From Deuterostichococcus epilithicus (taxonomy: Eukaryota > Chlorophyta > Trebouxiophyceae > Prasiolales > Stichococcaceae), in assembly GCA_033439295.1 (NCBI GenBank), contig JAVTLE010000005.1:124001-188000 (forward strand): a stretch of 64,000 nt of DNA, written 5' to 3'. Made by a program: the position numbers and the translations under genes. The notes beneath the pieces were generated by a model. The model had not been told where the DNA came from. It did no database searches and saw nothing but the letters and a program-made list of their open reading frames with translations. Below are positions 12,167-64,000 of the stretch, one piece after another (position 1 is the stretch's first letter; each line of letters starts with the position of its first letter).

Positions 12167-14287
12167 TCATGGCTCCTTGACTGCAGTTGCTGCCGCCGCC
12201 GCCGCCGCTGCTTCCCGATATCTGATGCGATTCTTCCTCGATGTACAGGCCTTGCACACGCTGTACAAGCCGTCTGGATGCAGCATATTCTTGGAGTACT
12301 CGCTGCTGGGTTTCACCTAGAGTGAGAAGAACCACAGTCACTGGCTGCGGAGGAAGATGCCATGACAGTCCTTCAGACGACTGCCAGTGAGCCGTCTGAG
12401 ACCAAGCACCCTTTCAGACTCCAGCTGTGCATGTCATGAAAGCACGGCCAGTGACCATCTGGGGGCAGCCGCCATATTTGGAGGCGCCGGCCAGTGCCCA
12501 AAAGCCGGCCGGTACCCGGCAACCGGCCCCGCAGCCGTCTGCTCCCCTTGCATAGCGTGGGCCCATCAGGACCACGCAAGCAGCGGTCCTATCATTCTGC
12601 CCGTGTTCCTTCATTCTTCACTGCCTTGGAATGTGATGCCTCACTATGAACAGGGTTTAGACCACCGAAAGCGTCACCCAGGATGAACACAGGACGCGCA
12701 CCTTGCTACATGCGGAGCACTGCTTGCGGGGCTCTGGCGCCTGCACCGGCCGCGCACCCTGTAGCGACTTGCGGTACTGAGCAGCCTGCCTCGCGTCGCA
12801 AGCCTTGCAGGTGGGCTGCCGGCCGTCCGAGGCCGACCGCATCCGGGAGAAATCAGCGAGCGGCTTGACCTGCGCGGTGTACAGGGTCCGAGCGAGGGAC
12901 GGTCACCGGTGGGCCTGGGTGCGGGTGACAGCATGCACAGCTTGCTTTCGGAAAGGAATGCAGGCCACGTGGTAGGGACAGGCAGCAGACGCTTGCGAGT
13001 GCGCCGGCCGGCAGCCGTGGCGGGTGCAAGCATGGAGGGGTTCACGGTGCCTGCGTCGTCGGACTGCAGTGAAGCCTGAAAGCCTGCCTGATAGGTTGCC
13101 AATGCCGCCAGATTCAGAATGTTCTGCATTGGCCGCCGGCATGGCTTGCAAGAGCGGGACGCAGGGGAGGACTGGCTCAGCCTGCAGTCCGATCTGAAAT
13201 GTAAACCCTAAAGCCAATCCACCTGGGTGCACTCTCGGCAGGCCTTAGTGTCGGCCGGGGCCCCTGCCGACACAGCAGCCGTCGCCGCTGCCACCGCCGC
13301 CGCGGTTTGCCGCCTCTGCGCCCTCTCCGCCCCTGCTCGCGCGTCCTTTTCGCAGGTGCACGCCCTGCATGCAGAGACTTGGACACGCCTGTACTTGCAG
13401 AGGCATTCACGGGGCGAGGCCTTCCCTTTATGGAAGGGGCGCGCCGCGGCTTTGCCCACATTGTGACAGTGCGGTGCAACAGCAGTGCGACAGCGGGTGC
13501 TGCAGCGGCTGGGTGCTTCCCACCGCCTGGGTGGTTTCTGCAGCCGGCGCCATTGGCCTGCCGCTGCCCGGTGCCGCACCCCAGGTAGGCCACCGCCGCG
13601 GCTCACAGGTTGCCAGGGTGGCAGACCAGGCGGGTCAGCGTCACGCAGACTTAAGGGCCTCGGGACCAGGCCGTGCCACAGCAGTGCCTGCCCTGCTCAC
13701 CTGCACATGGTATGGCGGCCGCTGAGTCGGCGCACGCTCACGGCAAACCAGTCGGCCGGCAGCGTCAGGCTGCACCGCGAGCACGTCTGCGGGTCGGGCG
13801 ACGGCGGGTGCGACTCCAGCGCCAGGCTGGCACTGTGGACATTCAGAGAGCGCAGCTGATGTGTGATGTAAGTGCAGCCCAATCACATGGGTGGCTGACT
13901 GGCTGGGGTTGCTGGTGTGGAACGTCGGTATGACTGCAGCAATCACACCGGCCCGCATGCACAGCCGGGCATGAAGCGGACCGAGCGCTCCGGCGGCACT
14001 GCCATGCCCGTACGTCTCCAGTCCTGCAGTTAGTTGACGCACCGTCGCTTCCGCGGGCGGCGCTCTTGGTAGCGCTTCGCCCTGCAGGCGAAGCAGAGGC
14101 TGTGGCGAGCCGCGGGCAGCTGCGGTGCCGCAGGGAACAGCCGCATGGGATACTCGTGGCCGCAGTCCACGCAGCGCTTGGCGCCGCTGCCGCCGTCGTA
14201 GCTGGCCGACTTTGGTGTTGCTGCTCCTGCGCCATATCCCACCGCAGTCGCTGGGCCGCTGCAGCTCAAGCCCAGGCCGTCCTGCAT
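12167..14287 (-). CDS. Four-module Cys-rich zinc-ribbon-like protein, copy A
   Basis: This is the first member of a family repeated in this window; its function is unknown. Minus-strand exons: up to 14287-14043 (module 1, CVDCGHEYPMRLFP ... CFACRAKRY), 13832-13701 plus the start of 13364-13223 (module 2, CSRCSLTLPADWFAV ... CRAC), the end of 13364-13223 plus 12869-12702 (module 3, CREC ... CKACDARQ), and the end of that exon plus 12316-12167 (module 4, CSACSK then DGLYSVCKACTSRKNR), with a stop at 12167. Each module has the form C-x2-C ... F/Y ... G-x3-4-C-x2-C, which suggests one zinc per module. Intron phases 2, 2, 0, 0 match copies E and F exactly. The C-terminal tail is basic then Ala-rich. 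The start is uncertain: ATG at 14287 may instead be part of an acceptor. Nucleic-acid binding is plausible but unproven. Confidence 0.75.
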
Positions 14288-15395
14288 AAGAGCACTGGGC
14301 AAGGCTGAACAGTCTTCTGATTCAACCTACGGCTGCAAGGGTCAGACCATGGTGGCAGCAGTCGACTTGTCTGCACAATGCCTTGTGGCAGGCGCCATAA
14401 CAGGCGGTCCGTCAGTAGGCCTTGATGCAGAATGTTCTCGAACAAACCGGCCCACCTTTGAATCTTGTGCTTGAGGGCGATCATCTTCTGTGACGCTGTC
14501 GCCAGACAAGGCTGCCGCACAGCACAGCGGCAGCTGCCTCCGTCCGGTGCCGGTCCGTGTGATTGCGTCCTGCAGTCCCTGGGGGCGTCCGCCGTCCTGG
14601 TGAGCTGCGGTCCGTTTGCTGCAGCATTCGCGCTGCGGCACCGGTGGAGCAAGACGCAGCAGATGCTGTCTGACTCGCAGCACACCGCCCGCACTGCTGG
14701 CTTGCACGGTACAGCAGATTAGCGGCATGAACTTGCCTGCCAGGCAGCCTTCAGCACCTCGGTAGCACAGCACTGATGTCAAGTTGTCAGGTCTGTCAAT
14801 ATTCTTGTGGACTATCGCTGCGCAGTTGAGCAAAGTATGAATCCTGTTAGAACCTCAGGTGCAGGACAAGTTTTTGGTGGCTCTGCCCCGGAATGCAGTT
14901 GGCATTGACCTGTGAGAGCTGAATGTTGAATATATACCACCGTCTGCACCTCGAGGACAGCATCACAACGCGGGGGGATTCAGGAATTCCGGAAATTCCA
15001 CTTGCAGCCTTGTCAGACAGGGGCTGCGTTGCTTGTCTGACAAGACCTCAACACCGCTTCAGCGCCTAGCAGCTGCAACCCAGCTTAATTTGCTTTCCCG
15101 ACAACAAAGCAAGCACAATTGTGCGTCCGAAAGTTGCTGCGCCGTCTACAAGTGCGACGACTTTGACCTTCCACCTCAAAGCGCAAATATCTGATATCCT
15201 GCGAGGAGCACTGGCAGCCAGGGTGCCATCAGCAATTTTTGCCTCAAAATATCCTGCTAAGAGGCTGGCCTGCAACCCAGCCCAGCTTTGGACTTTCCGG
15301 GCTCCAGAGCAAATTTGACCAAGCGGGGCAACACTGAGTGGCTGCATTTGCTCTGCAACGCGGTGTCCTTCGACCACGAGGTTCGAGCTGGAACC
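14288..15395. other. Divergent intergenic region
   Basis: This region lies between the 5' ends of zinc-ribbon gene A (-) and the thioredoxin-like gene (+), so both promoters should be here. The inverted repeat at 15009-15044 is its only clear structure. Confidence 0.4.
15009..15044. repeat. Perfect 11-base inverted repeat (hairpin)
   Basis: CTTGTCAGACA at 15009-15019 is exactly inverted as TGTCTGACAAG at 15034-15044, with a 14-base loop. It could fold in DNA or RNA. Its role is unknown. Confidence 0.7.
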
Positions 15396-18682: not shown

Positions 18683-19181
18683 AGGTCGCAGAGTTGCGGC
18701 AGCGGGCTGCTGCAGCCGAGGCGGAGCGTGACGCACCCACCGCGAGCATGGCGGCAGCTGCGCTGGCGTCCCCCACTTCGTCTGCGGGTGCAGCAGCCTC
18801 CCGCGCTGGGGCGCGGACGCTGTCGGGACGGCAGCGCCTGAACGGCGGTGGGGCTGGTACAACCGGCGGTGGCGGCGGCAGCAGGGAGCAGCTGCACCCA
18901 GCGGCGGCGGCCACAGCCGTGCTTGGCGGCAGGCCCTGGACGCTGGTGGCGCAGCTTCCTGCTTCTTCAAGGTTTGTTCGCCTGGGCGCGACCCTCAGCC
19001 GGCCCGGCACAGCCTGCGGTGGTGGCGGCGGAGGCAGCAGAGGCGGCTCGATTGTGAAGCGGGCTCGAAACGCCGCCAGCCTGTTCATATCTCTAGACGG
19101 CGGCGCCGGCAGGGTACATAGGGCCGCTTCGGGCGACGCACCCCACCACATTCAGCCGCTGCCATCGCCGCCGCCGCCAGT

Positions 19182-19234
<53 letters not shown>

Positions 19235-19928: not shown

Positions 19929-19934
19929 CTTCCA

Positions 19935-24500: not shown

Positions 24501-27500
24501 TGCCTCGTCGATGGTCCCCTCCCGCAGCTCCTTGCGCGCATTGCGGATGTCTGCACAAGAAGGAAAAGTAAAATAGATTCCATGCTGATTTGCGGTGGCG
24601 TCTGCAGCAAGATGCATCGATTGGCAATCCTGATGGGCGATGAGGCAGGGGGGGTCCCCAAAAGACGCATGCACGTCAGCCGCCGAGACAGAGTGCCTGG
24701 GCGGTGACAGGCTGCCGCACGGGCGTCTGCTGTACGACTGGCAGCAGCTCAACAGCGGGCTCCAGCACGTGGCGGCGACACACGCTGGTGGCGGTGCAGT
24801 GGGCAGGCAACCGCCTCCATGGTGGGAACGCGAGGAGCTTTCAAGAAGCTGTCATATCTGAAGCTGGAAGCTGAAGAAGCTTTCCAAGTGTGGAGGGGTG
24901 CGCACCGTTGGTCTGGGGGAAGGAGCCGATGGTGGTGGTGGGGAAGGCGGGCATCTCGATCTGCTTGGGGCGGCGCACCTCAAAGCCCTCCGACCGCTCG
25001 AACAGCGCCTCCTCCAGCTCCATGTTGTCGTCGGCTGCGGAAGGATCAACACACATGGATTGGTGAGAAAGGTGATGAGGCACACGGATCAGGAGCCGAG
25101 TCCGCGCCGTCCCAAGGCCGCCGGCTGTCTCCGTGGCGGCAGCACAGGCGCTCTGGGAGACGGCAGAGCATGGAGAGGAACGGACATAGCGCGCAGATGG
25201 CAGGCAAGCCAGGGCCGCAGCAGCGCAGGTGAGCCGTGCATCAGGGACGCACTGGGCGGCGCGGGCCCGGGCAGCTGGGCGACCTGCTCGGGGCTCAGGC
25301 CCTCGATGCTTTTTGCCGCGGCCACAATCTGCAGGCGCGCACAGCACGGGCGTCAACGTCTGCCGGAGGCGCAAGGGGAGGCAGGCGAGCAGCGGAGGCA
25401 GGTCGACGCTCGTGCCTGCACGTTACAGCTGCCAGAGTGCCGCAGTTCTTTGGGGTCTGGGCCTCGTCGCCTTTGAGCAATGACAGGAGCGTGGACGCTG
25501 CCCGGGGCAGGGCTCAGGTGCAGCACCGCAGCCAGAAGGGAATTCGCCCAGGCGGCAGCACGAGCGGGACAAAAATTTCAAACTGATATTGAAATCGTAA
25601 GCTGACAGCTGAGAACGAGAAACGAGAAGTACTCGCACCTCGTCCAGCTTTTGGGTGGCGAACGACAGGCGGCCCAGCAGCTGCGACGGCAGCCCCTTCT
25701 CGATGCGCTTGTCCACGGGCAGGTGCTGCAGCGACACCGAGCTGTGCACCGCGACCTTCGTGATGCCCTGCGCATCAACATGGCCACATGGCGTCGGGAA
25801 GTCGGCGTGGATCGGACGGGACAGGGGCTGGGACCCGCGGCAGGGCAGCGCCGATGTGGAATGGGCACAACAAAAGCTGCGGCGCGAGTCGGCTGACCGA
25901 GAAAGCGACAGGGCAGTTCAGACTTCGACAGGAAGCACGGCCGGGAGCAGCTGCAGCGTAGGCCGTCCAGCTGCACAGCAGCCAATGGCATCAGCTGCTC
26001 ATGGCCGAGGAGAACACACGGACGGGCAGTTGCTGCGGAGCCACTATGCTGGGTTCAGGTTCAGCGCAACAGGAGCACCTGCTTGATGAGGGCGCCCAGC
26101 TGGGCGGCGGGCGCGTCGCCGTCGGCCCACACGGAGCGGCCGTCGACAACGCCGGCGCCCAGGCGCTTGTCGGACGGGAAGCCGTGCTTGGCGATCAGGT
26201 CGGCCGTGGCGCAGCCGAGCGCCGAGCCGGGCACACCCAGGAAGTCCAGCGAGATGCCCTGTAGTAAGAAAGACACAAGACGCCGAGACGCGGATTAGCT
26301 GTGCTGATCACAAAGCTGCCGCTGAGGCAGGCAGACGAGCGAGGAAGCCAACTGAGTTCGAATAACAGCAGTGCAGCATCTGGCAATGCCATGCCCCGAG
26401 GGACGTTTCGCTGGCAGTGCTTGGCTGCAGCGCAGCAGCAAGGCAAATAAATTTTGCACAATGGGCCAGCGGCAGCACACGCAGACGCACAACAGAGGCA
26501 GGGACTCCGCACCTGCACCGGCAGCTGCACCACCCAGGGGTAGGTGTCGCCGATGTCGTCGTACATAGTGACCAGTTGCAGCGACAGGCCCACGGCGGAC
26601 AGCGCCTCGAAGGTCTTCTTGAAGTCGGCCTCTAGGGTGGCCGCGTGCGACAGCGTCAGCACCGGCTCCTGGACCTGCACCTCCGGCACGCCCAGCTCCT
26701 GCGGGGTTGTCAGCAGGTTTAGGGCGAGGACAGAAACGGCGTTTGGGCGCAGGCGCAGCTGCAAGCTTCCCTGCACGGCAGTGACCGGCAGCGCCGGTGG
26801 GGTCTCGGGCGCCCCTGCCTGTGTGCTGACAAAGGCAGACACGCTTCCGGAAAGTATCACAGTGCACTTGAGGGGATAGACACGGGTGTGTGTCGGCTGA
26901 CAAGCTGCTGCTGCTGCGTGCATCTGCAGGAAACAGAAGAAACACCCGGCAGGAAGATGCACGGCACCGCGCCTTGAGCTGCTTGAGGACGTCCACGTAG
27001 GCGGGGATGAGGCGGGCCACCAGTTCGGAGCGGCTGACGCCCTCCGCCACCGTGGCCAGGCCCACCAGCGTGTTGGGGCCTGCAAGAGGTTAGTGTGGGA
27101 CTGGTCTCAGTTGCCGTTTGAGATGGAACCTGAAGAAATGTGTTGTGAGCCACACAGTCTCAGCTGCCATCTGAGGTGGAGCCTGAAGAAATGCGTTCCG
27201 TGACCACACAGCGGTGGCTGGCTCAGCTTCGCGCAGGTCTGAGAGCGCAAGCGCGACAGTCAGCCACTGGGCACCGATCCCGCTTTGGAGGCAGAGGCCA
27301 TTCGGCAACCCCATCCCAAGGCAGTGAGGCACCAGGCTGTGCATCTGCGTGACTGCTTTACAGAGGTGCTCGAGAGCGGACGCACCCAGCAGAATTGGTA
27401 CTGCGTGCTCCTTGCCGACGGCGGCCTGGCCGCGCTTGACCTTGTCGATGAAGTCGGCAAAGTCGGGCGCCGGCTGCGTGTCCTGCGTCAGCTCCGGCTT

Positions 27501-30623: not shown

Positions 30624-33600
30624 ACACTTGCGACGCTTGCCGCCGACCCGCTGGCCTCGCTGGTCGACACGGCATGGCTCGGTCACCTGGGCACCTATGA
30701 GCTGGCCGGGGTGCGCAACTCTTTTCCACAGACGCACACTCCTTGGCAGAGGCTCGTCCTTGCAGAAGTGATGGATTCGTAGCTCCCGCGCTGCTGCCTG
30801 AGATGCGCTGCAGGTTGGAGGTCGCATGGCTCATTTTGTCCCAGTATGGCCAGCTACGGCGGCAGCTGCCAACAGGGACCCATTGCGCACCTGCGCGCAC
30901 CGGCACAGCAGCTCTGCAGGTCTCTCCCAGAATCTTAAAGCCTGTCCCGATCGAGGCCTGCACCAATGCAGGTGGGGGTTGCGCTCAGTGTGTACAGCAC
31001 CATCACCCGGCTCCTGAATGCGCCACTGCTGTCCGTGACCACGACGGCGGTGGCGGGCGCCCTGGGCCGCACAGAAGGTGGGTTTTCAGTCAACACCAGG
31101 CCATGCGCGCATCTCCGTCCAGGCCCCTGTGTGCTGCCAGCCGGCTGCACCAAGGCACGCAGGGCATGCGGGCGTGCACGGCTGGCTCCCTGTCAAGTGC
31201 TCTGGCCGGTTGTGCAAGACGTTGCAGATGCATACAGATGCCTGCTGGAATGAGTTGAGAGGAGCAACTTTGAGTTCTTTCGACCCGCAGCCGGTGAGGC
31301 GGAGGAGGCGGAGATTGGCCGCGCAGCAACAACGGCGCTTCTGGTGGCGCTCCTGATTGGCGGCATCGAGGTGCGTCTCCGGGCGAACCCTCCAGAGCTT
31401 CTGGAAACCGTGGACGCAGCAGCTGCTTTTCTCTTGCAGCCAAGCACTGCGTCTGCTGCCCCATGCAACGACCTGCCCCCCCAGCCCCGGGTGCAGCGCA
31501 GCACGCTGCGCCGCAGCGGCGAGCGGCAGGAGGCCGCGCAGCAGATGGTCAGGGCTCGTGGACCCTCCGTTTCACAAGGGCGGCCTGCTGCTGGCACTGC
31601 AAAAGCTCAAGACCCGTGGACCCTCGTATGCTGCCAGGGCGGCCTGCTGCTGGCGACGCTGGCCTGGGGCCTCGGGGCGTGGGGCGCCCCCGACGGCTCG
31701 CCGCTGCACCCGGCGGCGGCGGACTACCTGCGCTGGCGCGCTCTGGGGGCGCCCGCCTACGCGCTGCTGCTCGCCTGCCAGGCACGTCGTCCGGATTGAA
31801 GTTCCAAACCTTTCAGAACAAGAAAGCCTGCGTCTGAAAAGCGTTGGGGCGAGTATCGGATCCGGCTGGGCATGGCGGCGACGTCATGGCTGTGGGGGTG
31901 GCAACAGCGTGCTGAGAGCCTGGATCAAGCCCTTGATTGCGCTGGCACGTGTCTCATTCCCCCTGCCAGCTCGCATTCGCTTGTCCCAATCAGGAGACGC
32001 AGTGCAAATGTTCGAGCAGGGGCATGCATGGGGGACTGGGCACTGCCAAAGCTCATCCACGACTATTGTCGGCAAATGGAGCCCGACACCAGCTGCGCAA
32101 GCCAGCTGTCACATCCACCGCTTTGTACAGGGCGTGTTCAGGGGGCTGGGCGACACGAAGGCGCCGCTGTATGCGACGATAGGAGTGTCCGTCGCCAACA
32201 TCGCGCTGTGCCCGGCACTCATCTTTGGCGCCGGCTGGGGCGTGCGGGGCGCCGCCCTCGCCACGGTGCTTGCAGAGGTGAGCACTGACGTTTAATTAAC
32301 AGCAGCTGGCGCGGCCGGCAAAACACGCGCGGGGTGGCGCAGCTGGTGGGTCCAGTGATTCCAGTGAGTCAGTCGGCCGCTCATGTGGGGTCCTGCGGGG
32401 TGCTGCCGCTCGGCAGCGACAGAGCACAGTGCGCAGCGTCCGCCAGCTGGCAATGGCGGCGAGGCGGCCGCAGAGGTCGCCAGGCAGAAGATGTAATGTG
32501 CTCAACAGCCACTCAGCATCCAAGAAGGCGACGAGAATCCCTTCATTGCAACAGGCCGCCGGCTGCGCGTGGCTGCTGCAGGAGCTCGATGAACGAGCAT
32601 CCTTCGTTGCACAGGCCGCCAGCTGCGCGTGGCTGCTGCGGGAGCTCAATCAAACGAACGTCCTTCGTTGCACAGGCCGCCAGCTGCGCGTGGCTGCTAC
32701 GGGAGCTCAATCGAACGAATGTGCTTCGTTGCACAGGCCGCCGGCTGCGCGTGGCTGCTGTGGGAGCTCAACCGGCGGCACCCGCTGCGGGCGGCGGGCG
32801 CGGCGGCGGTCGCCAGCACCGTCACGCTGCTGCGCCCGACCGGGCTGCTGGTGCTGCGCACTGCGGCGCTGTCGGCGCCGCTAGCGCTGGCCAGCTCGCT
32901 GGCGGCGCGCACCGATGGGTGTGTTCTATATAAAACAACAGAAATGAAAACTGCTGCCGTGACATGCGCTCAAAGACCGCGTGTTTTAGTTCATTGGGAA
33001 CCTTCTCCCCGCTTGTGCAGCTCGATCGCAGCCGAGATTCACAGCGCGACCTGCAAGCGGGCTTGCAGGGCGGCGATGCCAGCGGCGCTGGGCATTCGGG
33101 TGGTCAGCCCTTGATTTCTCATGCGCCATCCCATGCGCTGAAATCACAGCGTGATGATGCTCCAGGTTGCCCACGGTTGTCGACGATTAGGTAGCCTCGC
33201 CAGACTCGATTCCCGGTGGCGTCTATCGAGCATCTGCATGCCTTCTGTCAGCACAGGTCCAGCAGGCAGCCCGCAGGCACTAGACTCAGGGTCCAGACAC
33301 CGCCTCGCGGGGACACGACCTGCTGCGGACTTGGTGACATGCACACTCCTGGTCATAATCATCGAGGTGCTTGTGACTGTCCTGATCAAGTGATTGATCG
33401 AGTCGAGAGGGCTGGCAGGCCGCACCCGGCAACGCACCAGATATATTCTCAGCTGCGGCTCGCGCTCTGCTGTGCCTCTTACTGCTCTCGTAAATCACCG
33501 CTCAAACAGAGGCCTCCTATAAGATGATGATGATGGCATTGTGGCTGCAGCTGGAACTGCGCACAGGCCGCGCGCAGCGGCGCTCCAGATCCCCTTCCAG

Positions 33601-37277: not shown

Positions 37278-37313
<36 letters not shown>

Positions 37314-40300: not shown

Positions 40301-41896
40301 AGCATGCAGCAAACCCATGTAGCGCCACCGCTGACAGACACCTAGACGATTGGTCTGTGTCATATACCCCAAAGACGCCCATCTGGCCTCCCCGGTCGAT
40401 GGGGCAGCAACAGTGGGGAGGAAAAAGCACGCGCCTGTGGCGCACGTTGATGCCGTGGTCCCGACCGTCGGGGCCGAAGTAGTCGAAGTTGTGCGCCAGG
40501 TCGTCCAGGCGGAACATCAGGTCGTCGCGCGCGACAGCCACGCATGCCTCCGACCCGCGCTTCAGCAGGAACTCCAGCACCGTCAGTGCCTTGTACACGT
40601 TGCGCCACTTGGCCGCCGGGTAGCCGAGGCGGAACTCCAGCACCGCCTGCGCATCAGATGTAAGGTTCACGAGCTGTTGCAAGCAGACGGCTCGAGCCGG
40701 TACCTGTTTGTGTGAGCGAGTCCACGGCAGGCGCTTGCATGGCCACGGCCACAAGCAATGGCCACAAGCAACGGCCGCCCATGCCGCGTGGACAGCCGGT
40801 CGGAGGACCTGGCAGTGCCGTGCAGCTCTGGAGCATGCCGCCATCACGGTCTTTGCAGGCAACAAGTCGGGAAAGGGGCGCGCGGCGCCGGCATCATGAC
40901 ACCAGGAGCAAGGGACGGTCAGATTCCAGCGCAGGGACAAGGAGTCGAAGAGAGGCGCACGAAGATGATGCGGCAGTCGGCGTAGCTGAAGCTCGCGTCC
41001 GCCAGCTCGTTCAGCAGCATGCCCGTGGGTCCCCTGCAGGCAGCACTGCCGGCGCTCAGCCGCACACGAAACTAGACCACCGCCACACACTGCCAGCCGC
41101 GTGCGGTTGAGGTGGCAGTTGCGGGACCCTCGTGCGAGCCATCCTGCTGCAGCAGGCCGCTGCCAAGGTGCTTGCCGGCGAGCCCGCGATGCGAAGCAGG
41201 GACCTCAGCACGTGCAAACCCCCGGTTGCAGCTGAGCCGTCTACCTAAGCAATACATCAGATCAAAAAAGCTAATATCAGTATTGTTAACATCATCATCA
41301 ACATAACTTCATATTGTTATTGTTATTGATACTTTGGCGCACCACGGCTCATTGCGGGTGGCCTCCCGCACTCGGCGCTCCATGCTGGTGAAAGGGTGCC
41401 AGCGCCCGTGCTTGACGGCGGTCAGGTAGTCGCGCAGCCACGCCGCCCCCTGCTGCGCCCGCGTCACACCCTGCGGCCGCCCGAAAGCCTGCGCGGTGCG
41501 GCAATTCGGGTTCAGATCACAGTGAGCTGTTGGCGCGGCTGTACATGTATGACCTCGCCGGCAGGAGCGGCGCGGCCGTCTACCACACCAGGTTGCGTGA
41601 TTCGTGCGCCGTGATCCTCACCAATCACGCTATTTCGGACTTCTCGCGCTTGCCGTGCGCTTGTCGGTCAATTCCAAAACATAGTTGCTCACCTTCTGCG
41701 AGCCAGCGGCCGCGGCTGCATACACGGTGCTAACGCATGCGCTTGCACTGTCGCAGAGCATGTAGCATGATGCGCTGGACCCCACCTGCAGCGTGCCGTA
41801 CTGTGCATTGCGCCCGCGGGTGGCGAGCGCCATTGAGTGGGCTCCCGGCGCATATGGCGGCGGCGATGCAGGGGAGGTCGGCGATGCCACCGCCAT
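36123..41896 (-). CDS. ENTH domain plus ArfGAP domain protein
   Basis: Minus-strand exons in order. 41896-41786 is the leader from ATG. 41488 to about 41343 holds [13 protein letters not shown]. Next is 41034 to about 40965 ([20 protein letters not shown]). About 40647-40445 holds [20 protein letters not shown] and GRDHGINV; together with 40083-39879 these give an epsin N-terminal homology (ENTH) domain, a phosphoinositide-binding fold. About 39601-39480 ([20 protein letters not shown]) and about 39252-39140 follow (CADC-x16-CLVC zinc finger, arginine finger in [12 protein letters not shown]). About 38636-38406 ([28 protein letters not shown]) completes an ArfGAP domain, which stimulates GTP hydrolysis by Arf. 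38122-37973 is a charged Ala/Glu coiled-coil-like helix, and 37703 onward is a long Gln/Pro/Ala-rich tail to the stop at 36123. The join between ENTH and ArfGAP is phase 0 to phase 0. A role in coat assembly or vesicle budding is inferred. Confidence 0.85.
37266..37312 (-). repeat. CTG/CAG tract coding polyglutamine
   Basis: About ten to eleven CTG units encode glutamines in the tail of the ENTH/ArfGAP protein. More interrupted Gln codons follow to 37515. Confidence 0.8.
38729..38775 (-). repeat. Decayed copy of ArfGAP exon start
   Basis: On the minus strand CAGGTGCGGCCGTGCAGC and ACCTGGCTGCCGGCCCAG repeat the real exon start near 38645-38600 (CAGGTGCGGTCCTGCAGC, ACCTGGCTGCCGGCGCAG), including the acceptor. 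It lies in the upstream intron about 125 bases away. Confidence 0.75.
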
Positions 41897-42811: not shown

Positions 42812-45322
42812 ATGCAGCGCGCACTGGCCGGTCAGGCGCCGCCTGCCGGCCTGGCGGGTGACCAGACTCGCAGCAGGTTGCAGCATTCAGCACAGGCGCC
42901 CAGCAGGCGACGGTGTCATGCCACGACGACAGCTATGCAGCGACCGAAGCACAAACGGCAGCGTAGCAGCATGCTCAGGGCGGCGGTCGAGGCACCAGCA
43001 AGGACAGTGGCGTGCGAGGCGCACAGCCTGCCGGCGCCCGCGCCTGGCTTCAGCAGCATTCCAGGTGCGGTGGTTGGCACAGCAACGTCTTGGGTCTTTC
43101 CGAGCGAGCTTTCAGGAATCGATGGTGGCAAGCCTTTCAGGGGGCTGCCGTGGCTGCAATACTTCTTGGCTAGCTCCGGCTCTACTGCTGAACGGCCTGA
43201 AGCCGCTCAAAAGGAGGCAGACACCATCGAGGATATGAGAGTATCATCCTCGTCACTCCTCCATCGTGGCTTACACCTCGCATCCAACTAGCACTCTATT
43301 GTGCAGCAGCATTCAGCAATGCCGCATGTGCTACCTGTCCCTGGCTGCGCAAGATTCACTAGATGTGCCCGCGCCCTCAGGCGCTGACAGGGCGACCTGT
43401 CGGCAGTAGCTGTGGCTGCTGCTGCGGCTGCTGCCGTGGGCCGGCATGTCACCGCAGCGGTGACGACGACGAATGCTGCGGCCGCCAGCCGCTGGGCTGC
43501 CAGCGGCTACAGGGGGGCAGGGCCAGCCTGCATCAGTCCAGGGACACACAGAGGCGGCAGCTGCAAGCACCGCCAGCGCGGCTGACGCAGCCACTTACCC
43601 TGATCGCGCAGACGCGCTGGCGGACGTCGCCGCTGGCAAGTTTGTTGTCGTGACGGACGATGCGGACCGGGAGAATGAGGGCGACCTCATCATGGCGGCG
43701 GACCGCATGACCACCGAGGCCATGGCCTTCATGGTGCGCAGCATCCTGCTGCGGACCTCCTCCTGGCTGCCGTCTCGTCTTTCATTGTCGTCCGACGATC
43801 AGTCTTGCAGTTTCAGCCTTTGGAACAGACTGGGGAGGCTCGAAATTCCAGCTCTGGAATCCGGACCTGCGGCAGGCACCGCAGTGTATCAACGTTGACA
43901 CCAATGCCGCTATTTCAGGAAACCAGCAGCTGCCTGGCGATGTGCCATGGGTCCCTGGACCGGCTGGAGTTGGCACTGCCAGGAACTTGCTGCCTTGCAC
44001 ATTCAGGAAACCCACGTCGAGACGCTCGGTTGTTACCCGTTGCTTGACTGAATTGCGGAATCGCACCCCCAAACTTTGCTGCAGATCGAGGAGACCAGCG
44101 GCTGGGTGTGCGTCGGCATGCGCGGCGAGGACTTGGACAGGCTGGAGCTGCCGCTACTGGTGCCGCAGCTGGACAACGACGAGGCAATGCGCACCGCCTT
44201 TGCGATGCCGGTAGACCTGGCCTTTGGAACCACGACCGGCATCGACGCGCACGACAGGTGGGCGGGCGGGCTGTGGTTCAGTCAGGGAGGAGGGGAGGGT
44301 CGATCACCTGTGTGCGATACAGGCAGCCAGCCACAGGCACCGATGCGCACAACAGCTCGGCTTTGGTGGTGCCACGAGCAACGCGGGCGGGCTGCTGCCG
44401 CGCTGCGTGTGCCGGTGGATGCAACAGACGCCAGCGCTGTGCCTCGTTTGCCACCTCGATTGGTGTCTCCGTGCATGTTCGGAACTCCAGCTGTCTGGAC
44501 GAACGGTCGCCGCCGCCGCCGCAATGAAGGAGCTCACGGGGCTCTGCTGAAGCAAATCCGAATCTGAACCTGAACCTGAAACACTGAACAGGGCAGCGGC
44601 GGTGCGAGCGCTGGCGGACCCAGCATCGCAGCCGGCGGACTTCAACCGGCCGGGGCACGTGGCGACGCTGCGGGCGCGGCCGGGCGGCGTGACAGCGCGG
44701 CGCGGCCACACGGAGGCGGGCGTCGACCTGGCGCGGCTCGCGGGGCGCTTCCCAGCGGGCGTGCTGTGCGAGATTGTGGACCGCAGCGCCGGGTGAGGCC
44801 ATGGCTGCGGTGCATGCATCCCGTGCTGTATGAGGTTGTGGACCGCAGCGCTGGCTGCGGCTGCGGGTGCGGCGCATGCGTCTGGTGCTGGCAGCACCAG
44901 GGGCTGGCGTGCAGCGTCACGGAGCTCGACTGAGGCCAGTAAGGTGTCTGCAGAGCACTGCGCAGGGCTGTTCCTGCACCGATTCGCGAGAGGATATGGA
45001 ATATAGAGTGCCGGGCAAAACCAGCAGGCAACGTGCAGTTCGAGATGCTGTACACGGAAGGCTGGTGCTGCAACCCGTGTCAGGGTCGCAAACTCGGGGT
45101 GTCTGCCGCAGGGAGGACGGCAGGCAACAGGGCGGCATGGCGCGTACGCCCTACCTGCTAGACTTTGCGCGGCGGCACGGGCTTCGGTGCATCACCATCG
45201 ACGACCTCGCGCGCTACATCAGCGCGCAGGAGCAGGAACAGCAGCAGCAGCAGCCGCAGCAGCAGCAGCAGCAGCACAGCAATGGCAGCGGCGTCGACTC
45301 GGCTGCAGGCGTCGCGGCATGA
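42812..45322 (+). CDS. ribB: 3,4-dihydroxy-2-butanone-4-phosphate synthase (stand-alone RibB type)
   Basis: It converts ribulose 5-phosphate to the four-carbon unit of riboflavin. Five exons join in phase: 42812-43064 (basic, Ser/Ala-rich leader from MQRALAGQ, transit-peptide-like), 43513-43733 ([20 protein letters not shown], substrate- and metal-binding acidic loop), 44085-44257 ([21 protein letters not shown]), 44592-44792 ([34 protein letters not shown] with the metal-binding His) and 45112-45322 ([16 protein letters not shown], then a tail of interrupted glutamines). About 352 residues. Plant and many algal enzymes are fused to GTP cyclohydrolase II; here the frame stops after the polyQ tail and no such domain follows in the next kilobase. 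Active-site segments are intact, so function is likely. Confidence 0.92.
44823..44854 (+). repeat. Decayed copy of RibB exon 3' end
   Basis: GTGCTGTATGAGGTTGTGGA and on through CCGCAGCGCTGG repeats the real exon end at 44761-44792 (GTGCTGTGCGAGATTGTGGA, CCGCAGCGCCGG), 62 bases downstream in the intron. This copy is of an exon 3' end, not a start. Confidence 0.85.
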
Positions 45323-46321: not shown

Positions 46322-47268
46322 GAGGCCACCAAGCGGTGTCTGGGCTGCCGCCTGGAATTCAAGCTCCGCTTCTTCCCGGCGCTGAAGAGCCAGCCAGACG
46401 GTCTGCACCCGTTGTGCTGGGGCTGCCGCAGCGAGGACAACCAGCGCCGCCGGCCCAGCCTGCGAAGGTCACCAAAGCACCAATGCCTTGCATGGTCCTG
46501 GTCATCCAATGTTGCTCTGGTGCAAGGGGAAAGAGAAAGAAGTTCTGTCCTCGTCTGATGTACACTGGGCTGCATCAAACTGCTTGTTTCCCCTGTGGAC
46601 GAACGCTCGCATGCTGCGATGAGACGCACATCCCGTCAATGACGGTTGCGCTGTGGAAGGCTCTCCTGCATTGCGCGGGCCTGATAGTGTCTGCTGCCAC
46701 AAATTGCAGGAGCTCCCAGCATTTGGCAAACCCTCCGACGAGCGTGCCACAGACGTGCCGCAGCTGCAGCGCCACGCTGGCAGCAGCGCACTTCTCCATA
46801 GCCAGCCATTGCAAGACGGGCCGCCAGTCGCGATGCAAGGCGTGCTTTGCTGAGGAGGATGCCAAGCGGGACGCGGCGCGGGACCGGCCGCAGGCCCCCG
46901 TGACCAAGCCATGCCTGGCGTGCCAGCAGGTGCTGCCCGCCGCAGCCTTTTCTTCGAAGGGCCTGCAGCCATACTGCCGCAAGTGCGATGCGCAGCGGGT
47001 CGCAGCTCGGAAGAGAGAGCGCTCACCGTCACAGCTGCCGCCGCCGCCAATCATGGTGTGCAGCACCTGCCGCCAGCCAAAGCCGGTCATCGCCTTTGGC
47101 AGGGATCGGAAATCCCAGTTCGGCATCAACAGTCACTGCTTTGAGTGCATCAATACTCGGGCTTCAGAGCGGTACTGCGCCGCAAAGCTGCGGGCTGCTG
47201 CACCTGCCGGCGGCGGCAATGCGGCAGGCGTGGGCGGTAGTCAGGTGGCAGGCTCACGGGACGCCTGA
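46322..47268 (+). CDS. Four-module Cys-rich zinc-ribbon-like protein, copy B
   Basis: Exon 46322-46467 follows a CAG acceptor and holds module 1 (EATKRCLGCRLEFKLRFFP ... GLHPLCWGC). Exon 46710-47268 holds modules 2 to 4 uninterrupted: CRSCSATLAAAHF ... CKAC, then CLACQQVLPAAAF ... YCRKC, then CSTCRQPKPVIAF ... HCFEC, followed by a basic then Gly/Ala-rich tail to the stop. The intron phase (AG|G, phase 2) matches copy D. This subfamily differs from A/E/F/G in having no introns between modules 2 and 4 and a conserved linker KRERSPSQLPPPPIMVCS. Function unknown; paired CxxC motifs suggest structural zinc. The upstream start exon is not resolved. Confidence 0.78.
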
Positions 47269-52319: not shown

Positions 52320-52744
52320 TGAACACCATTGTCGGGACTGCCAGATGCCATGTCAGAGTGACCTTGCAAGGTAGTATGCACAAGGACTGCAGATGCAGCC
52401 ATCTGTGCCAGAGGTCCGTCCCGGTGTTGCCCTAGTACATACAGGGGCGAGAACTTATGCCTCAGCAATGCGTGCACTGCATGCCTGCCGAAACGGACTC
52501 CTTCATTTGTCCAACCACAACAGCGCAGCGTCAGAGAAAATGCCTGGGTGTGGCAGTTTGAACTGTCTCTGATAATAGATACAGCGCAGCGCGGACGCGT
52601 GCGACCTTGTTATGTGGGAGTGCAGCCTCCCGCACCGTCACTGGCAGAGCCTTCTGCCTCCCCGCCACTATATCACGGCTGCACGCTGCCGCAGCCTTGC
52701 GGCGCAGCATCATCGGTTGACATACGAGGCTGCTCTGCATGCCA
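52320..52744. other. Spacer after protease gene
   Basis: No gene seen apart from the protease 3' flank. Confidence 0.4.
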
Positions 52745-53005
52745 TGCAAGCATGGTGGACGCCGAACAGGGTGCCCGGGAGGTGTGGAAGGCAGACGTTG
52801 GCCTTGGCTGAGAACAGCCGCTGCACACAAATGGCCGCCGGCGGTGGCAGCTGCGCTTATAAGCGCTCTCTCTGCGCAGCAGAGTCCCGCTGTGCATTGC
52901 ACTTGTGGTAGTAGCTGTGCAGGACGCCCACGCCTCTTGGATGTCGATGAAAAGCTGCGACAGGCAGCACCACCTCGCATGCCGCCAGGCACTTCTGGTC
53001 TCCTA
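52745..53005 (-). pseudogene. Fragment of zinc-ribbon family, copy C
   Basis: On the minus strand a piece reads QKCLAACEVVLPVAAFHRHP and then YYHKCNAQRDSAAQRER, clearly related to module 3 of copies B and D (CLACQQVLPAAAF, YCRKCDAQR). After a stop, another frame gives VCSGCSQPRPTSAFH, related to module 4 (VCSTCRQPKPVIAF). An extra base pair or residue breaks the first CxxC (CLAAC), and the frames do not join. Modules 1 and 2 were not found upstream. It is most likely a dead copy belonging to the B/D subfamily. Confidence 0.7.
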
Positions 53006-54071: not shown

Positions 54072-55027
54072 TCACGCCCTCCGGTTGCCTGCCGGCTGGC
54101 CGCCGCCAGATCCCGCTGCGGCGCCACCGCCGGTCGAGCCGGCCGCCCGCTGCAGCTTTGCGGCATGGTGCTGACGAGAGACACGAGCTGCACTGCACTC
54201 GCGGCAGATGTAGCGGACTTCAAAGTGTGCGCCCTGGTGCCTGCTGAATGTGGACAGCGGCTTCGCCTGGCGGCAGCCGCTGCACACCATGGCTGCCGGG
54301 GGCGGCAGCTGCGATGGCGAGCGCTCTCGTCTGAACGCCACGGCCCGCTGCACGTTGCACTGACGGCAGTATGGCAGCAAGCCGTCTGCGTCGTGTTGTC
54401 GGCTAAAGTCTGCAGCGGGCAGCACCTGCTGGCACTCCAGGCACTCCTTGGCCTCCGGGACCCGTGGCATTTCCCGCGCCGCGAGCCGCCGGGCGTCCGC
54501 TTCGGCAGCGCAGGCCTTGCATCGCGAGAAACGGCCCGTGACTTTCCTGCTTTCTGCAGAGAAGTGCGCCGCAGGCAGCATGGCGTCGCAGGTGCGGCAC
54601 GTCTGTGGCTCGGTCGTCGGCGGGTGCCCAGGTGCTGGCCTCGACCCGGCTCGCGATCTCCTGCAATAGCAGCAGCAACCACATTGGAGTCTGCCCACAG
54701 CGGCTGTGGTGTCACCAGCAGATCGCTGGTGCAGATGCCCAAAACATGTATAACATGTACAAGTGCTCCTGCAGGCCAACGGGTACAGAGCTAGTCACTC
54801 ATCCTGCAGGCCCTTGGTGCGGACCCTTGGTGCAGGAAGGATGCACAGCGTCATCCTACACGATGCTGGCGATTCGGCAACCTGGGCTGGCGGGGCCGGC
54901 GGCGGTGGTTGTCCTCGCTGCGGCAGCCCCAGCACAGTGTGTGCAGGCCGTCCGGCTGGCTTTTCAGCGGCGGAAAGTAGCGCAACCTGAAATCCAGGCG
55001 ACAGCCCAGGCATCGCTTGGTGGCCTC
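54072..55027 (-). CDS. Four-module Cys-rich zinc-ribbon-like protein, copy D
   Basis: Minus-strand exon 55027-54882 follows a GGCAG acceptor and gives module 1 (EATKRCLGCRLDFRLRYFP ... GLHTLCWGC). Exon 54660-54072 gives module 2 (CRTCDAMLPAAHF ... CKAC), module 3 (CLECQQVLPAADF ... YCRQC) and module 4 (CSGCRQAKPLSTF ... ICREC), then a Gly/Ala-rich tail to the stop at 54072. Exon edges, phase 2 intron and the linker RRERSPSQLPPPAAMVCS match copy B closely, so B and D are recent duplicates in opposite orientation. The start exon is unresolved; the open frame reaching back to 55564 is not similar between B and D and may be intron. Function unknown. Confidence 0.78.
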
Positions 55028-56430: not shown

Positions 56431-59090
56431 GCGTCAACCTCGGCGATGAGTGGCTGCCGAACATCAGTTTTCTGGTCGCAGGCCCGAGTGGTGGCACAGG
56501 TCGGCAAGAGCGCAGGAGGCGCCGCCCCTGCGGCCACCACTGACGCGGAGGGCACAAGAACACTCGGGCGAGCCCCTGGCAGCGCCGGCGGTGGCGGCGA
56601 AGGCGGCGGCTGCAGCGGCGGCGCCGGCAGCAAGTGCTGCGCGGAGTGCGGCGCCGCGTACCCCCCGCGGCTGTTCCCAGTAACGGCGTCCGCACCCGAC
56701 GGCCGCCACAGTCACTGCTTCGCCTGCCGGGCGAGGCGCTACCGGGAGCGCCTCCCGAAGCAGTCGCGGTGCGTATGAACAGAGCAACCCCCGCACACGA
56801 TCGTGTGGGGTCTCAGGGCGTATGTTCTGTAGCTTGCTGCTGTCGTTGCAGCCAGCTGTGTCGTGACGGCCGCTGCTGCCCCAGAGGCCGGGCTTTCTGC
56901 CTGTGTGCATCTTGCAACCGGCATGCTTATGCTGCCGAGTGTGAGGGCGCTCGGCATTGGGCCCGCGAGCATGGCTGGACGGGCACAGTGTTCCAAGGGG
57001 CAGCCAAAGCCCCATGCCGCGGCCGTGACACGGCTGGCTGCAGCAAAAATCAGCCCCGAATATCGACCTGGACAAGTGCAGCTTTGGGGGTTTTTCCAGG
57101 GCTTCCGCTCTCCGCCCAGGAAACCCTGCATGCGCTGACAACATGCCCATGAGCACCTGTCACAGAACTCTCTGGCACACCTGCGCAGCGGCTGGAAGGG
57201 CGTGCGCACGCCCAGCCCGCCGAGCGACCAGCCGCTGACGTGCCTGCGGTGCGGCCTGACGCTGCCAGGCGACATGTTTGCCGTCGGCGCCCTCAGCCGC
57301 GCCGGCCGCCACTCTTGGTGCAGGTGCGAAAAACCAAGAAAATACACAGGAAAAAGGTGCATTGCGAGGTCATTGGCCGGACACTCTCTCAACTGCAACC
57401 GGACAGTGGCAGCGTCTGCAGAGTCACTCACTGTGCGCCGCCGGCTGGGCGCTCTCATGCCCCAGGGTGGGCGAGCTGCTCCATGGGGCATTCGCAGTGA
57501 CAAGATGGCCGGTGCAACAGCGCACCGCGCCTCCTGGGCGACCGTCGCACCGGGCACCTTTTGCCGCTCGCAAGTCGGCCGGCCACCTCGTGGCCCGGCG
57601 CAGCCCCTGCAGGCTTGGCGTGGCAGCTCCCAGGAGAATGGGCGGTGCTGTCAGAGGGGCTTGGTTTTAAATTATTTCAGGGTCTCATCTAGAGCAGTGC
57701 CTTGGATGGCAGTTCCTGATCCAGACCAGTAGACGTCAGCCCTGCCCGCAGGGCCTGCACCAGCGAGAATGACCTGCGGCGGCGTGCGAAGCAGCAGCTG
57801 AAGGCCAAGGCAGCCGCCGCCGCCGCGGGCGGCGCCGCGCCCGAAACTAAGACCTGCCGCACCTGCCACCAGGTGAGGGGGAATGCAAGGCCATTATCCT
57901 GGGCAGATTCAAGAATAAGCCAACAAAGCCAACAACAACAGCAGCAACGACAACGACAATGGCACATGACCGCCGGAACAGCTCTGTGCACGATAGGCGC
58001 CTGGCGGGAAACAGGCCATGAGCGCATCGCACAGGGTGACTTCAAAAGCCGACATGAAAGCACTTGTCCTGTGCGGGGCTTGGTCAGAGTGGGGCATGGG
58101 GCCTGGAAGCCGGGTCACGCCACCGCCGGCACAGCACCCGGGTCGCCGCGCCGCGTGCGGGTCTCGACCGGCTTTAGAATTTAAACTCGAGGTGCCACCC
58201 CTCCTACGCCGGTGCACCGCGTGCCAGGCCAGGCGTGGCTGTGGGGATTGGGGCATTCAATGTGAAATTAAATACCCCTGGTGGGTCCAAGAGCTGACAT
58301 GCGTGAGCATCCTCTGTAAAGTTTCGTTCTGTCCCCATCTGGCAAGAACTGCAAACGACCTAATGCTGGGGCGTTGCAGGTCAAGCCGGCCGCCGACTTC
58401 TACCGCTGCGCCATATCTAGCGGCGGCCTGCGCACCACCTGCAAGGCGTGCGAGCTGGCGAGCGCGAACTCCTGGAAGCGCGCTGTCGCGAGCCAAAGGG
58501 CGCCGCCCACACTGCTGTCCGCAAGCAAGCGGTGCTACCGTTGCCAGGAGGTGCGGTCTCGCGTTTTGTAAGGCTTTCGCAGCTTGAGACGGCCGTCCAA
58601 ACTTTGCATGCTTGATTTTCATGTCTCAGGATATCCATCCAAATTTGTTGCATGTTTCTGTGCATGGCTCAGCTTCCATCCTTCGAAGTGACTTCAGCAG
58701 CTCAGGATGGAGTCGACCATACATGTCCCCGCGCCTGTGTTCGTGGCCCTCACATGTCAGTTGTGGGCTCGCCGGCAGCGGCAGGCGCCTGCAACAGCAC
58801 GTCCAGTTGCCGCTGTGCAGGAGCTCTCAAGCACCCCCTTCCACTGCCCCGGTACATTCCACGGACGGTTGGCCGAAACCTAGTCTGTGCCAATAGACTT
58901 CGCGTCACCGCTTCTACGGAGCCCCCAACACTGAGCCCTAATCCCTGCGCAGCTGAAGCCACGGACTGAGTACAACAAGTCCCAGCAGCGGCCAGACGGA
59001 CTGGACAGCGCATGCCGGGGGTGCCGCAGCGAGCTGAACCGGCAGTACCGCAACGCGGCTGCGGCAGCGACGGCGGACGTGGCGGACTGA
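56431..59090 (+). CDS. Four-module Cys-rich zinc-ribbon-like protein, copy E
   Basis: Five exons join in phase. 56431-56768 has a Gly/Ala-rich stretch, then module 1 (CCAECGAAYPPRLFP ... HCFACRARRYRER). 57189-57323 starts module 2 (CLRCGLTLPGDMFAVGALSR, GRHSWCR). 57752-57872 supplies the last Cys of module 2 (RACTSEN), a basic helix, and the first Cys pair of module 3 (ETKTCRTCHQ). 58380-58550 completes module 3 (KPAADFY ... CKACELA) and begins module 4 (KRCYRCQE). 58953-59090 completes module 4 (LKPRTEYNKSQQRPDGL, CRGCRSELNRQYR) and ends. Introns therefore cut modules at fixed points with phases 2, 2, 0, 0, exactly as in A and F. A further 5' exon is expected. Function unknown; the basic linker hints at nucleic-acid binding. 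Confidence 0.82.
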
Positions 59091-60775: not shown

Positions 60776-62696
60776 AGGGCCAGCTGGCGGAGCTCAGCCA
60801 GCGCAGCGCTGACTCGGGCACGGCAGCGGGTGGCGCAGCCGGCACAGCAGAGGGCGCCCTTGTCGGCGTCGAGGGCAGCGCAGGAAGGAAGTGTTGTGCA
60901 GACTGCGGCCAGGAGTACCCCATGCGGCTGTTCCCCTCGGTGCCGCGGGCGGCCGACGGCCGCCACAGCCACTGCTTCGCCTGCAGAGCGAAGCTGTACA
61001 CTGCACGCCGCCCCAAGCAGAAGCGGTGAGTGTGGACAAGAAGCTGCGGCCAGATACCGTCATCGAGGGCAGTACCGTCATTTATGACTCTCAGAACCGG
61101 TTCCACGAACCCCTTGCGGCCACACGTTCTGAGGACTGCATGAGGAACTCTGCGGCTGGCCGGCCCTATGCTGGCCGATGGGTCGCCGCTGCGCGTGCTG
61201 TGCTTCCAGCTGGCTGATCGCGTCGCTGTCTGGGCCAGCGCCACAGGGAGTGGCTCTGGCTCAGGGCCCTCAACCCTGAACCCTTCACCTGCCTGGCCAC
61301 CACCAGAGTGCTCCCCTTGGCGCCTCACAGGGTCCACGCCTTGCACCCCCTTGCCTGACATAGCGCGCCAATCAGTGCCGGTTCTCCCCTCCATGCAGCC
61401 CCAAGACCAGCGCCGAAGGGGGCCGCACACAGTTCCCGCCCACGCATGCGCCGTGCACGTGCAAGCGCTGTGGCCTGAGGCTGCCGGCGGACCACTTTGC
61501 AGTCTCACCCAACAGCCGCAGCGGGCGCCACTCCTGGTGCAGGTAAGGTCTGCAATGGATCAGGCCTTAGGGTACAATGTGCTGCCCTCAGAATCCCTTC
61601 CAATGCATCACGGTGTCCAAGCAGATGGCAGCAGGTGGGCCGCATAAGCGCCCTCTCCAGTGGCGGCCGCCGCGCGAGGCGCGTCGCCAAGTTGGCACAA
61701 CTAAGCCGGAATGAGACGGGCCCAAATTTAGCCAGATGGGCGGTTTTCGCTGGGGATCCTCGGCTGCAGGCGACGCACGCTCCCACTGCCGCAGGGCGTG
61801 CCTGAGCGAGAACACAGCCAGGCTGGTGGCGAAGCGCGCTGGCGCGTTGGATGCCGCCGCTGCCGCGCCGGGGGCGGCGCCCGAGACCAAAACCTGCCGC
61901 CACTGCCACCAGGTGCCACTTATCCATCGGTTTCAGGGTTCAGGGCGTGTGCACTTCCCTGATCCCTACCGCCCCCGGTGCCGCTCGTCCTCGGAACTTC
62001 TCCTGTTCTACTTTGCAATCCTGTATTATCCTCTGTTCTCATGCTCTCCACTGTTTCTGGTGCTGATGCGCCTCAGTGGGAACCCGTGGACGTGTCCTCG
62101 CCCGCAGGCCAAGCCCACCAGCGCATTCTACCGCTCGCCGACGTCGGCCGGCGGCCGGGCGAGCGCCTGCAAGGCCTGCTGCCGCGCCAACATGTCGCAG
62201 TACTTCGCGGTGCTTCGCGATAGTGCGCAGCCGGTGCTGGTGGCGGGCCACAAGGCGTGCTCGCGCTGCGGCGAGGTGAGCAGACCTGAAGTGCATGCAG
62301 GGCTCATCCATGGGTTCTTTCAGTCCCCTTGCATCCAGCCGCCGTAGCCGCGCTTGTTCAGCCCCAAGCCTGCCTTTAAGCCTTAACCCTGGGCGTCAGG
62401 CCGCCAGGACCCGGCCGTGAGCTGCTGGCGGCGTGTGGGGCCAGACTTCGGCACACGCCTGTGAGGCAGCGCCCGCAGTCAATAGCAGTCATGTCGCCTG
62501 TGCGGCGCTGGCCCGTGCCAGCCTACCGACTGTGCCGTGTGACACGCAGACAAAGCCCCAGAGGTCCTACTACAGAAACACGTCGTCTCCGGACGGCACC
62601 ATCAACGTCTGCAAGGCGTGTGTCCTCCGCCGCATGCGTGAGGCCCGGGCGGCAGCTGCGACGACAGCGCCGGCGGCAGCAGACACGGACAGCTGA
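60776..62696 (+). CDS. Four-module Cys-rich zinc-ribbon-like protein, copy F
   Basis: Five exons join in phase: 60776-61025 (GQLAELSQRS, then module 1 CCADCGQEYPMRLFP ... CFACRAKLY), 61399-61542 (CKRCGLRLPADHFAV, GRHSWCR), 61795-61912 (RACLSENTARLVAKR, ETKTCRHCHQ), 62108-62275 (KPTSAFYRSPTSAGG, CKACCRANM, then ACSRCGE) and 62550-62696 (KPQRSYYRNTSSPDGT, CKACVLRRMREAR, stop). Intron positions and phases equal those of E, its head-to-tail neighbour 1.7 kb upstream, so the pair is a tandem duplication; residue differences between them are many, so it is not very recent. The 5' exon is not resolved. Function unknown. Confidence 0.84.
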
Positions 62697-62889
62697 GAGC
62701 GTAAGCTTGTGGTGCGGTGTGGCGGGGGTGGAGTGACGCCAGGGCGGTAGCGGCCACTGCGGCGGGCGACTGCTGATAGATTGCTGCCGACAGAGTGCTG
62801 CTGCCGAAGCATCAGGTGGTTGCTGCAGCGGCCTGGACGAGACCCTGTTGTGAGGCGTGGTTCTTGCGCGGTCTGGCGGCCCCGAGACG

Positions 62890-62929
<40 letters not shown>

Positions 62930-63567
62930 AGGTTTGACCTCTGTTTGATGGCCCGCGCTGGTGGCATAGCTGGCACCAGGCATCGTGCAGACAGAGACGT
63001 TTGCCCTGTGAGATTTGAAACTTGCAGCCTCAGGTTCGCACGGCATGTGAAGGCTTGCGCCGTTTGGCGTTGAATTGTCGGCGGAAGGACTGGTGACAGT
63101 GAGGATTCGTTAGTTGCAGATATGGCACTTCCTGGTTCGTCCTGATCGGCAATTGGCAAGTCCAGTCCAGACTTGTATCCACTCAAGCCTGGACCTCACT
63201 GTCATCTCGTCGACTTGACAAGATTGTGTCAGGCGCAAGGCCGTGCAGCTTTTGATCGTCAAACACTTTCGAGATCCTGATATATACTGACCCAACTATC
63301 TCTGCACTGAGGTTTTTTCAAGCACACTGCATTGTGCCTCTGCACAGCGCACTTTGAGGTCTCGAGGACGCGGAAGAGTATACGAACATCGAAACCCAGA
63401 TGGAATGTCCAATCGTCAAGGCAATTACTGCCTTGGCCAGCATTTGGGGCCTGCTGCCACAGGGTACCACAATGCCGCACAAAATGGATGTGAACTCACG
63501 CTGGCAGCCTGGAGGGAAATCCGCAGCTGGAGTTCATGAGCCGAGCCCATGTAGCAGAGCAAACCCG
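62697..63567. other. Convergent spacer between copies F and G
   Basis: It lies between the stops of F (+) and G (-). It contains the CTG tract at 62890-62930 and nothing else recognisable. Confidence 0.4.
62890..62930. repeat. CTG microsatellite
   Basis: About 13 uninterrupted CTG units lie 190 bases past the stop of copy F, outside any supported coding exon. Confidence 0.85.
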
Positions 63568-64000
63568 TCAGCTGCCCTTCACTTCTTCCGGCGCATGCGC
63601 CGCGGCTGCCTCCGCCGCCTTCACTGCCGGGCGCAGTGTGCGCTTCCGCCTTGTGGTGCAGCCCTTGCATTCAGCCCGTAGGCCGTCTCTTTGGTCTCGT
63701 TGCTGGTAGAAGGCATGGCATGGTTGCACCTGTATTGACAGTGGTTGACTGGCATGTAGAGGTTGGTTCGGAATATAGGGCGACCCCAGCAGTCAACAGA
63801 CGAAGCAGCCGGGATCCGCTCATGCGTCAGCATGTCAGCAGGTGCGAGGCACATGCCCCGCAGCTCGCCATCCGCCGCACTCAGCAAGCTGCCTAGAAGT
63901 GCGAGCGCCGGCAATCTACCTGCTGCAGGAGCTCCCTCACAGGCCGGGTGCCGGGCCACGCACCTCGCCACACTTGCTGCACCGTTTGGCCTCGAGCTGC
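63568..64000 (-). CDS. Zinc-ribbon-like protein, copy G, cut by right edge
   Basis: Two minus-strand exons are visible. The one at the edge (64000-63964) reads QLEAKRCSKCGE before a GTGCGT donor, equal to the end of the fourth exon in copies E and F. The last exon (63729-63568) follows a CAG acceptor and reads VQPCHAFYQQRDQRDGL, then ECKGCTTRRKRTLRPAVKAA to the stop at 63568, completing module 4. The phase 0 join matches the family. Modules 1 to 3 should lie beyond the window. Confidence 0.75.

Follow-up and report, generated by a model that had tools for sequence, protein, structure and literature searches.

A family of paralogous nuclear genes predicted to encode basic four-module C4 zinc proteins in a probable green alga

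In this study, we describe a family of paralogous nuclear genes for what appear to be small, strongly basic proteins of four tandem C4 zinc modules, and we give about even weight to the reading that these arrays bind nucleic acid. Judged by sequence comparison, the module is of a known kind: it occurs in the fungal protein Stc1, in the axonemal protein IQUB and, as a non-catalytic head, in viral HNH and endonuclease VII proteins. The window, the whole stretch of 64,000 nucleotides that was analysed (contig C5:124001-188000), belongs to a genome of 46.8 Mb in 21 contigs. Introns and an AAACCCT telomere show that the source is a eukaryotic nuclear genome; the eukaryote is probably a green alga. 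A module profile run against all six frames located modules at seven sites in the window, named copies A to G. Six copies look intact (A, B, D, E, F and G), with four modules each. The features are listed below in window coordinates; split modules are given as two parts.

12221-14179, minus strand: copy A, type 2, four modules once spliced (HMM scan and splice anchors)
14057-14179, minus strand: copy A, module 1
13700-13789 and about 13337-13366, minus strand: copy A, module 2
13223-13246 and about 12771-12872, minus strand: copy A, module 3
12702-12725 and about 12221-12313, minus strand: copy A, module 4
46331-47268, plus strand: copy B, type 1, stop codon at 47266-47268
46331-46453, plus strand: copy B, module 1, in a frame that differs from that of modules 2-4 (46750-47175)
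52713-52997, minus strand: copy C, degenerate, remnants of modules 3 and 4
54072-55018, minus strand: copy D, type 1, stop codon at 54072-54074
54896-55018, minus strand: copy D, module 1, in a frame that differs from that of modules 2-4 (54168-54605)
56632-59051, plus strand: copy E, type 2, four modules once spliced
56632-56751, plus strand: copy E, module 1
57238-57330 and about 57750-57785, plus strand: copy E, module 2
57849-57872 and about 58374-58478, plus strand: copy E, module 3
58527-58550 and about 58953-59051, plus strand: copy E, module 4
60889-62696, plus strand: copy F, type 2, four modules once spliced, stop codon at 62694-62696
60889-61011, plus strand: copy F, module 1
61454-61541 and 61795-61822, plus strand: copy F, module 2
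61889-61912 and 62108-62200, plus strand: copy F, module 3
62252-62275 and 62550-62648, plus strand: copy F, module 4
63640-63987, minus strand: copy G, type 2, inside the window module 4 only (63964-63987 and about 63640-63735)

The profile scan bears out an earlier note on this DNA, which had seen seven copies in the window, five of them close together at the right end in mixed orientation; this cluster spans 11.3 kb. The four modules claimed there for every copy are present in A, B, D, E, F and G, and C is a decayed remnant of two modules. Modules 1-3 of copy G lie past the window edge and reach contig position C5:189430. Scores were 29.6 to 63.3 bits for unsplit modules and 18.9 to 48.5 bits for the longer pieces of split ones, values that are partly given by construction, since the profile was made from 16 modules of these copies; none of five shuffled windows went above 10.4 bits. 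The shorter pieces, with one CxxC pair each, fall below the shuffled windows when scored alone. Copies outside the window reach 64.3 bits with the same profile, and in a protein search of the genome the exon of copy D matches B at E 9.7e-45 and a further paralogue, L003, at E 1.9e-42. A chance origin of the modules is ruled out by the shuffles, scored with the profile from the window copies, together with these independent paralogue matches. Three remnants in copy C score 10.1 to 20.4 bits; the profile scan and a DNA self-comparison of the window reveal lost Cys, in-frame stops and one frameshift in this copy.

The module reads C-x2-C, P and F/Y, G, C-x2-C, followed by a helix. Among the 24 modules of the six intact-looking copies, 22 have exactly 22 residues from one CxxC pair to the next, the exceptions being module 3 of B with 17 and module 3 of D with 21. 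This spacing is tighter than the one proposed before. In a structure model of one module a long helix begins at the second CxxC, which leaves the previous label "zinc-ribbon-like" a loose one; we take the fold to be a treble clef.

Concerning gene structure, copies B and D carry modules 2-4 in a single open frame and module 1 upstream in another frame, which points to a separate exon for module 1. Their open frames run to stops at matching places; in B, D and F the stop follows module 4 by about 15-31 codons. In copies A, E, F and G an intron breaks module 2 just before its fourth Cys, and the introns of modules 3 and 4 fall between the two CxxC pairs. Modules 2-4 of these copies are complete only once spliced, and the split places are common to all four. 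The predicted junctions have AG acceptors in 12/12 cases and GT donors in 11/12, the sole other donor being GC (copy G, module 3), and the exons between junctions were in frame and free of stops in all eight checked. The joined modules of A, B, D, E and F have a pI of 9.6-9.8, a value from a GC-rich genome that is not controlled for GC.

From these sequences we infer that each module would bind one zinc and that, in the nucleus, the four-module array would bind nucleic acid, with DNA as the likeliest target. Module 1 may be a common, more conserved anchor (a shared contact to DNA or to a partner), the faster-changing modules 2-4 may set the target of each copy, and copies may arise and vanish near one telomere and diverge there. 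Pooled over copies, the seven motif positions have dN/dS of 0 to 0.19 in six of seven sets (the seventh is saturated) and the remaining positions of the same modules 0.23 to 0.89, the sets differing in which copies they include. Left out of pooling were L003 for type 1 module 2 (Cys pair lost), type 1 module 3, L012 for type 3 module 3 (frame ends within the module), L004 for type 3 module 1 (across two frames) and L038 for type 3 modules 2-3. Among the whole-module values computed, that of module 1 is the lowest in type 3 (0.22 versus 0.59 and 0.33) and, by little, in type 1 (0.44 versus 0.48 and 0.71). Pairwise values in type 2 range over 0.18-0.87 in module 1, 0.51-1.39 in module 2 and 0.37-0.98 in module 3. 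Diversifying selection was not detected in pooled dN/dS, which never exceeds 1; single short pairs reach 1.39.

Protein searches of the genome (cut-off E 0.001 in one search, 0.01 in the others) give about 33 loci after merging at 1.5 kb. This is a lower bound that counts C and D as one locus, and likewise F and G, and some loci are weak or single-exon, e.g. a match on C9 at E 0.0083 and a fragment on C6. Eleven of the 33 loci fall in C5:1-400 kb (9 of 29 when merged at 3 kb; a binomial value, which ignores the non-independence of tandem copies, is not relied on) and five in C13:1-200 kb. Contig C5 starts with telomere repeats, its first 292 bases containing 38 AAACCCT units, and at C5:1.8 kb lies a copy that consists of module 1 alone. 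Typed by best-fitting query, the loci comprise type 1 (B, D and their relatives), type 2 (A, E, F, G and theirs), type 3 (chiefly on C13, with others on C5, C11, C1 and C4) and type 4 (on C3, C4, C7, C12, C18 and C19), which is nearer to viral modules, as judged from the part of its loci that was read. The proposal of local amplification with divergence in a fast-changing family is supported. Recent amplification is countered by a comparison of the window with itself at the DNA level (E <= 1e-5), where similarity between copies is confined to exons and adjoining sequence, and by dS between copies of 0.33 to 2.10, mostly 0.35-0.9. A bolder form of our reading sees a new kind of algal recognition array: a lineage-specific, telomere-proximal family of nucleic-acid-binding proteins for which the Stc1/HNH-head module would have been made into a four-unit array, with module 1 more fixed and with modules 2-4 diversifying the recognition by each copy, e.g. 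of DNA targets or of small-RNA effector partners. We regard this as distinctly improbable.

The likeness to heads of HNH endonucleases, suspected before, is supported by matches of copy D to PHROG endonuclease VII families 1035 (E 2.7e-18) and 2633 (E 4.6e-13); further PHROG families with the module are 2340 and phrog_5558 ("Lar-like"), and families named endonuclease VII and "Lar-like" match D at E about 1e-18. Giant-virus proteins resemble the module by fold. Scans of viral sequence gave one locus with a type 2 query and 15 loci with a type 4 alignment, and the viral ORFs read hold one, two or, by eye, three modules (L066). Three of seven scanned viral proteins carry an HNH or Endonuclease_7 match (one of the viral proteins, L071, was scanned in its first part only). 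Tandem modules without a nuclease match occur in phages too: protein L068 and a pair of proteins from Gordonia phage Orchid, with two modules each, gave none. In the exons tested here no nuclease domain was found, in line with the original description, and a nuclease identity was rejected as no catalytic HNH / bba-Me core was found in them. No HNH family is among the 14 Pfam families matched by eight exons, in a search that covered the sequence from module 1 onward. An Endonuclease_7 search of the same genome gave no match, but its controls were equally silent. One contig scan for prokaryotic homologues gave no confirmed relative, which does not establish absence, as the patterns used were short and came from three modules.

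Given such close matches to phage endonuclease heads by sequence and to giant-virus proteins by fold, the genes might be relics, i.e. domesticated or captured viral or mobile HNH/endonuclease VII genes that lost the nuclease and have little or no function. Degenerate copy C, the copy reduced to module 1, L003 with its two lost Cys and the near-neutral drift of some modules would all suit such an origin. However, the Cys/P/F/G scaffold has been retained in modules whose pS is about 0.3-0.5. Apart from the one GC donor, A, E, F and G have intact splice sites and reading frames, and the open frames of B and D persist to their matching stops. Moreover, the motif also occurs in eukaryotic Stc1 and IQUB, so that a viral source is not needed. 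We consider relics unlikely.

The main rival to nucleic-acid-binding arrays is a Stc1-like adaptor, in which the arrays would hold Argonaute or another protein, bring in a chromatin-modifying complex, in the manner of Stc1 in fission yeast, and work by protein contact. Pfam Stc1 (PF12898) is the best-matching named domain. Copy D reaches 33.6 bits against a cut-off of 24.8, its best stretch covering positions 50-83 of 84 only, and L003 with its in-frame neighbours reaches 25.9 bits over positions 2-83. Stc1 is matched by 8/8 multi-module exons at E <= 0.1, a threshold looser than the Pfam cut-off, and by 10/22 single modules at E <= 1. For the three-module structure model, the first PDB match in Foldseek is Stc1 (2luy, E 5.4e-3). 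Viral L068 likewise exceeds the Stc1 cut-off, hence the label is not specific. One Argonaute-like locus is present in the genome (C7:934 kb; three PIWI-domain matches, the best of them, at E 1.5e-12, above the cut-off). The Stc1 family is reported from fungi and from algae, with relatives in Ostreococcus, Micromonas, Emiliania, Aureococcus and Phaeodactylum (Bayne et al. 2010, PMC2875855). The earlier note had been unable to name the protein; the score of copy D and these algal members supply a name for the module. In the same study, K100A and R116A were found to weaken the association of Stc1 with Ago1 and not the recruitment of the methyltransferase complex (PMC2875855). At these contact positions, by our own residue mapping from the alignment and the mutant names, K is found in 8/24 modules, R in 2/24 and both in 0/24. 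On balance, an adaptor role has a low probability in our judgement.

Even less probable is a structural or zinc-holding role apart from nucleic acid and chromatin, e.g. as a scaffold like the axonemal IQUB module. Strongly basic, much diverged paralogues in large number, with drifting modules, fit a fixed role less well. Searching PDB with module profiles gave IQUB at E 0.0053 and Stc1 at E 0.056 (corrected rows 0.0084 and 0.059); by sequence, nothing significant was found in PDB for copy D alone or for alignments A4 and A2. Pfam LIM was matched by 2/22 single modules, at best at E 0.0073. On a second look, the first zinc repeat of the restriction enzyme Hpy99I (PDB 3fc3, about residues 61-119) was the first alignment row for both structure models. 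In PMC3765158, DNA binding and dimerization are ascribed to residues 1-105 of Hpy99I, and the catalytic residues are given as Asp148-His149, beyond the zinc repeat. A review calls the zinc motifs of HNH restriction enzymes structural and unrelated to sequence recognition (PMC4081073), which argues against a DNA-binding analogy drawn from Hpy99I.

The module itself and its presence in algae are already known. In the open-licence literature searched, a four-module, telomere-proximal, nuclease-free family was not found described, nor did any named family turn out to have this four-module layout. One zinc module links proteins that are usually encountered separately: Stc1, which is an RNAi adaptor in fungi, an axonemal protein, and viral HNH nucleases through their heads. 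Here, near a chromosome end, a eukaryote has assembled the module into four-module proteins and multiplied them, with no nuclease found. Should the arrays prove to bind DNA or Argonaute, they would offer a tractable system for target recognition by the module and for algal silencing or defence.

Compared with known systems, the family shares with Stc1 (PDB 2luy) tandem C4 modules and a related CxxC...K...F...CxxC pattern. Stc1 has two N-terminal fingers, whereas the family here has four modules and many paralogues, and the Ago1-contact pair K100 and R116 never occurs together in a module. In IQUB (PDB 8j07, 9fqr) the same motif stands near residues 597-640, as a single module within a large protein, and in Hpy99I the repeat belongs to a restriction enzyme. 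Viral HNH / endonuclease VII heads carry the same C4 module, one to three in a row, in part joined to a nuclease match that was not found in the exons tested here; nuclease-free viral arrays exist as well, with two modules in the three scanned versus four in the family described here.

A third type 1 copy (L003) lies at C5:350962-351432 on the contig that carries the window (contig C5), where it keeps an open frame but lacks the second Cys pair of module 2. The module 3 intron of copy G (C5:187958-189442) has a GC donor, and in copies A, E and F this donor is GT. Towards the left end of the window, an isolated stretch resembling half a module (positions 2789-2839, + strand) scored 15.3 bits with the module profile as compared to a shuffle maximum of 10.4 bits, and it is possibly a relic copy.

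The window further holds a direct repeat and three open frames with matches to ordinary families.

Other features of the window (window positions, strand, feature)
32540-32771, direct repeat (length about 110 bp, 88% identity)
26198-27106, - strand, cobalamin-independent methionine synthase N-terminal domain
40056-41204, - strand, ENTH domain
44052-44564, + strand, 3,4-dihydroxy-2-butanone 4-phosphate synthase

Concerning the contig ends, the start of contig C5 (region C5:1-2000; loci L056 and L035) carries AAACCCT repeats and, at 1.8 kb, a copy reduced to module 1 alone. The starts of contigs C13 and C12 (L057, L058) are completely identical across the first 400 bases; the telomere repeat is absent from the 200 bases read at these two starts.

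Outside the alga, gp2 and gp3 of Gordonia phage Orchid (L025) are annotated as endonuclease VII. Since each contains two zinc modules only, and the family scan gave no nuclease family match for either protein, this label is likely a misannotation. One copy of the module is also present in the axonemal protein IQUB (PDB 8j07 / 9fqr).
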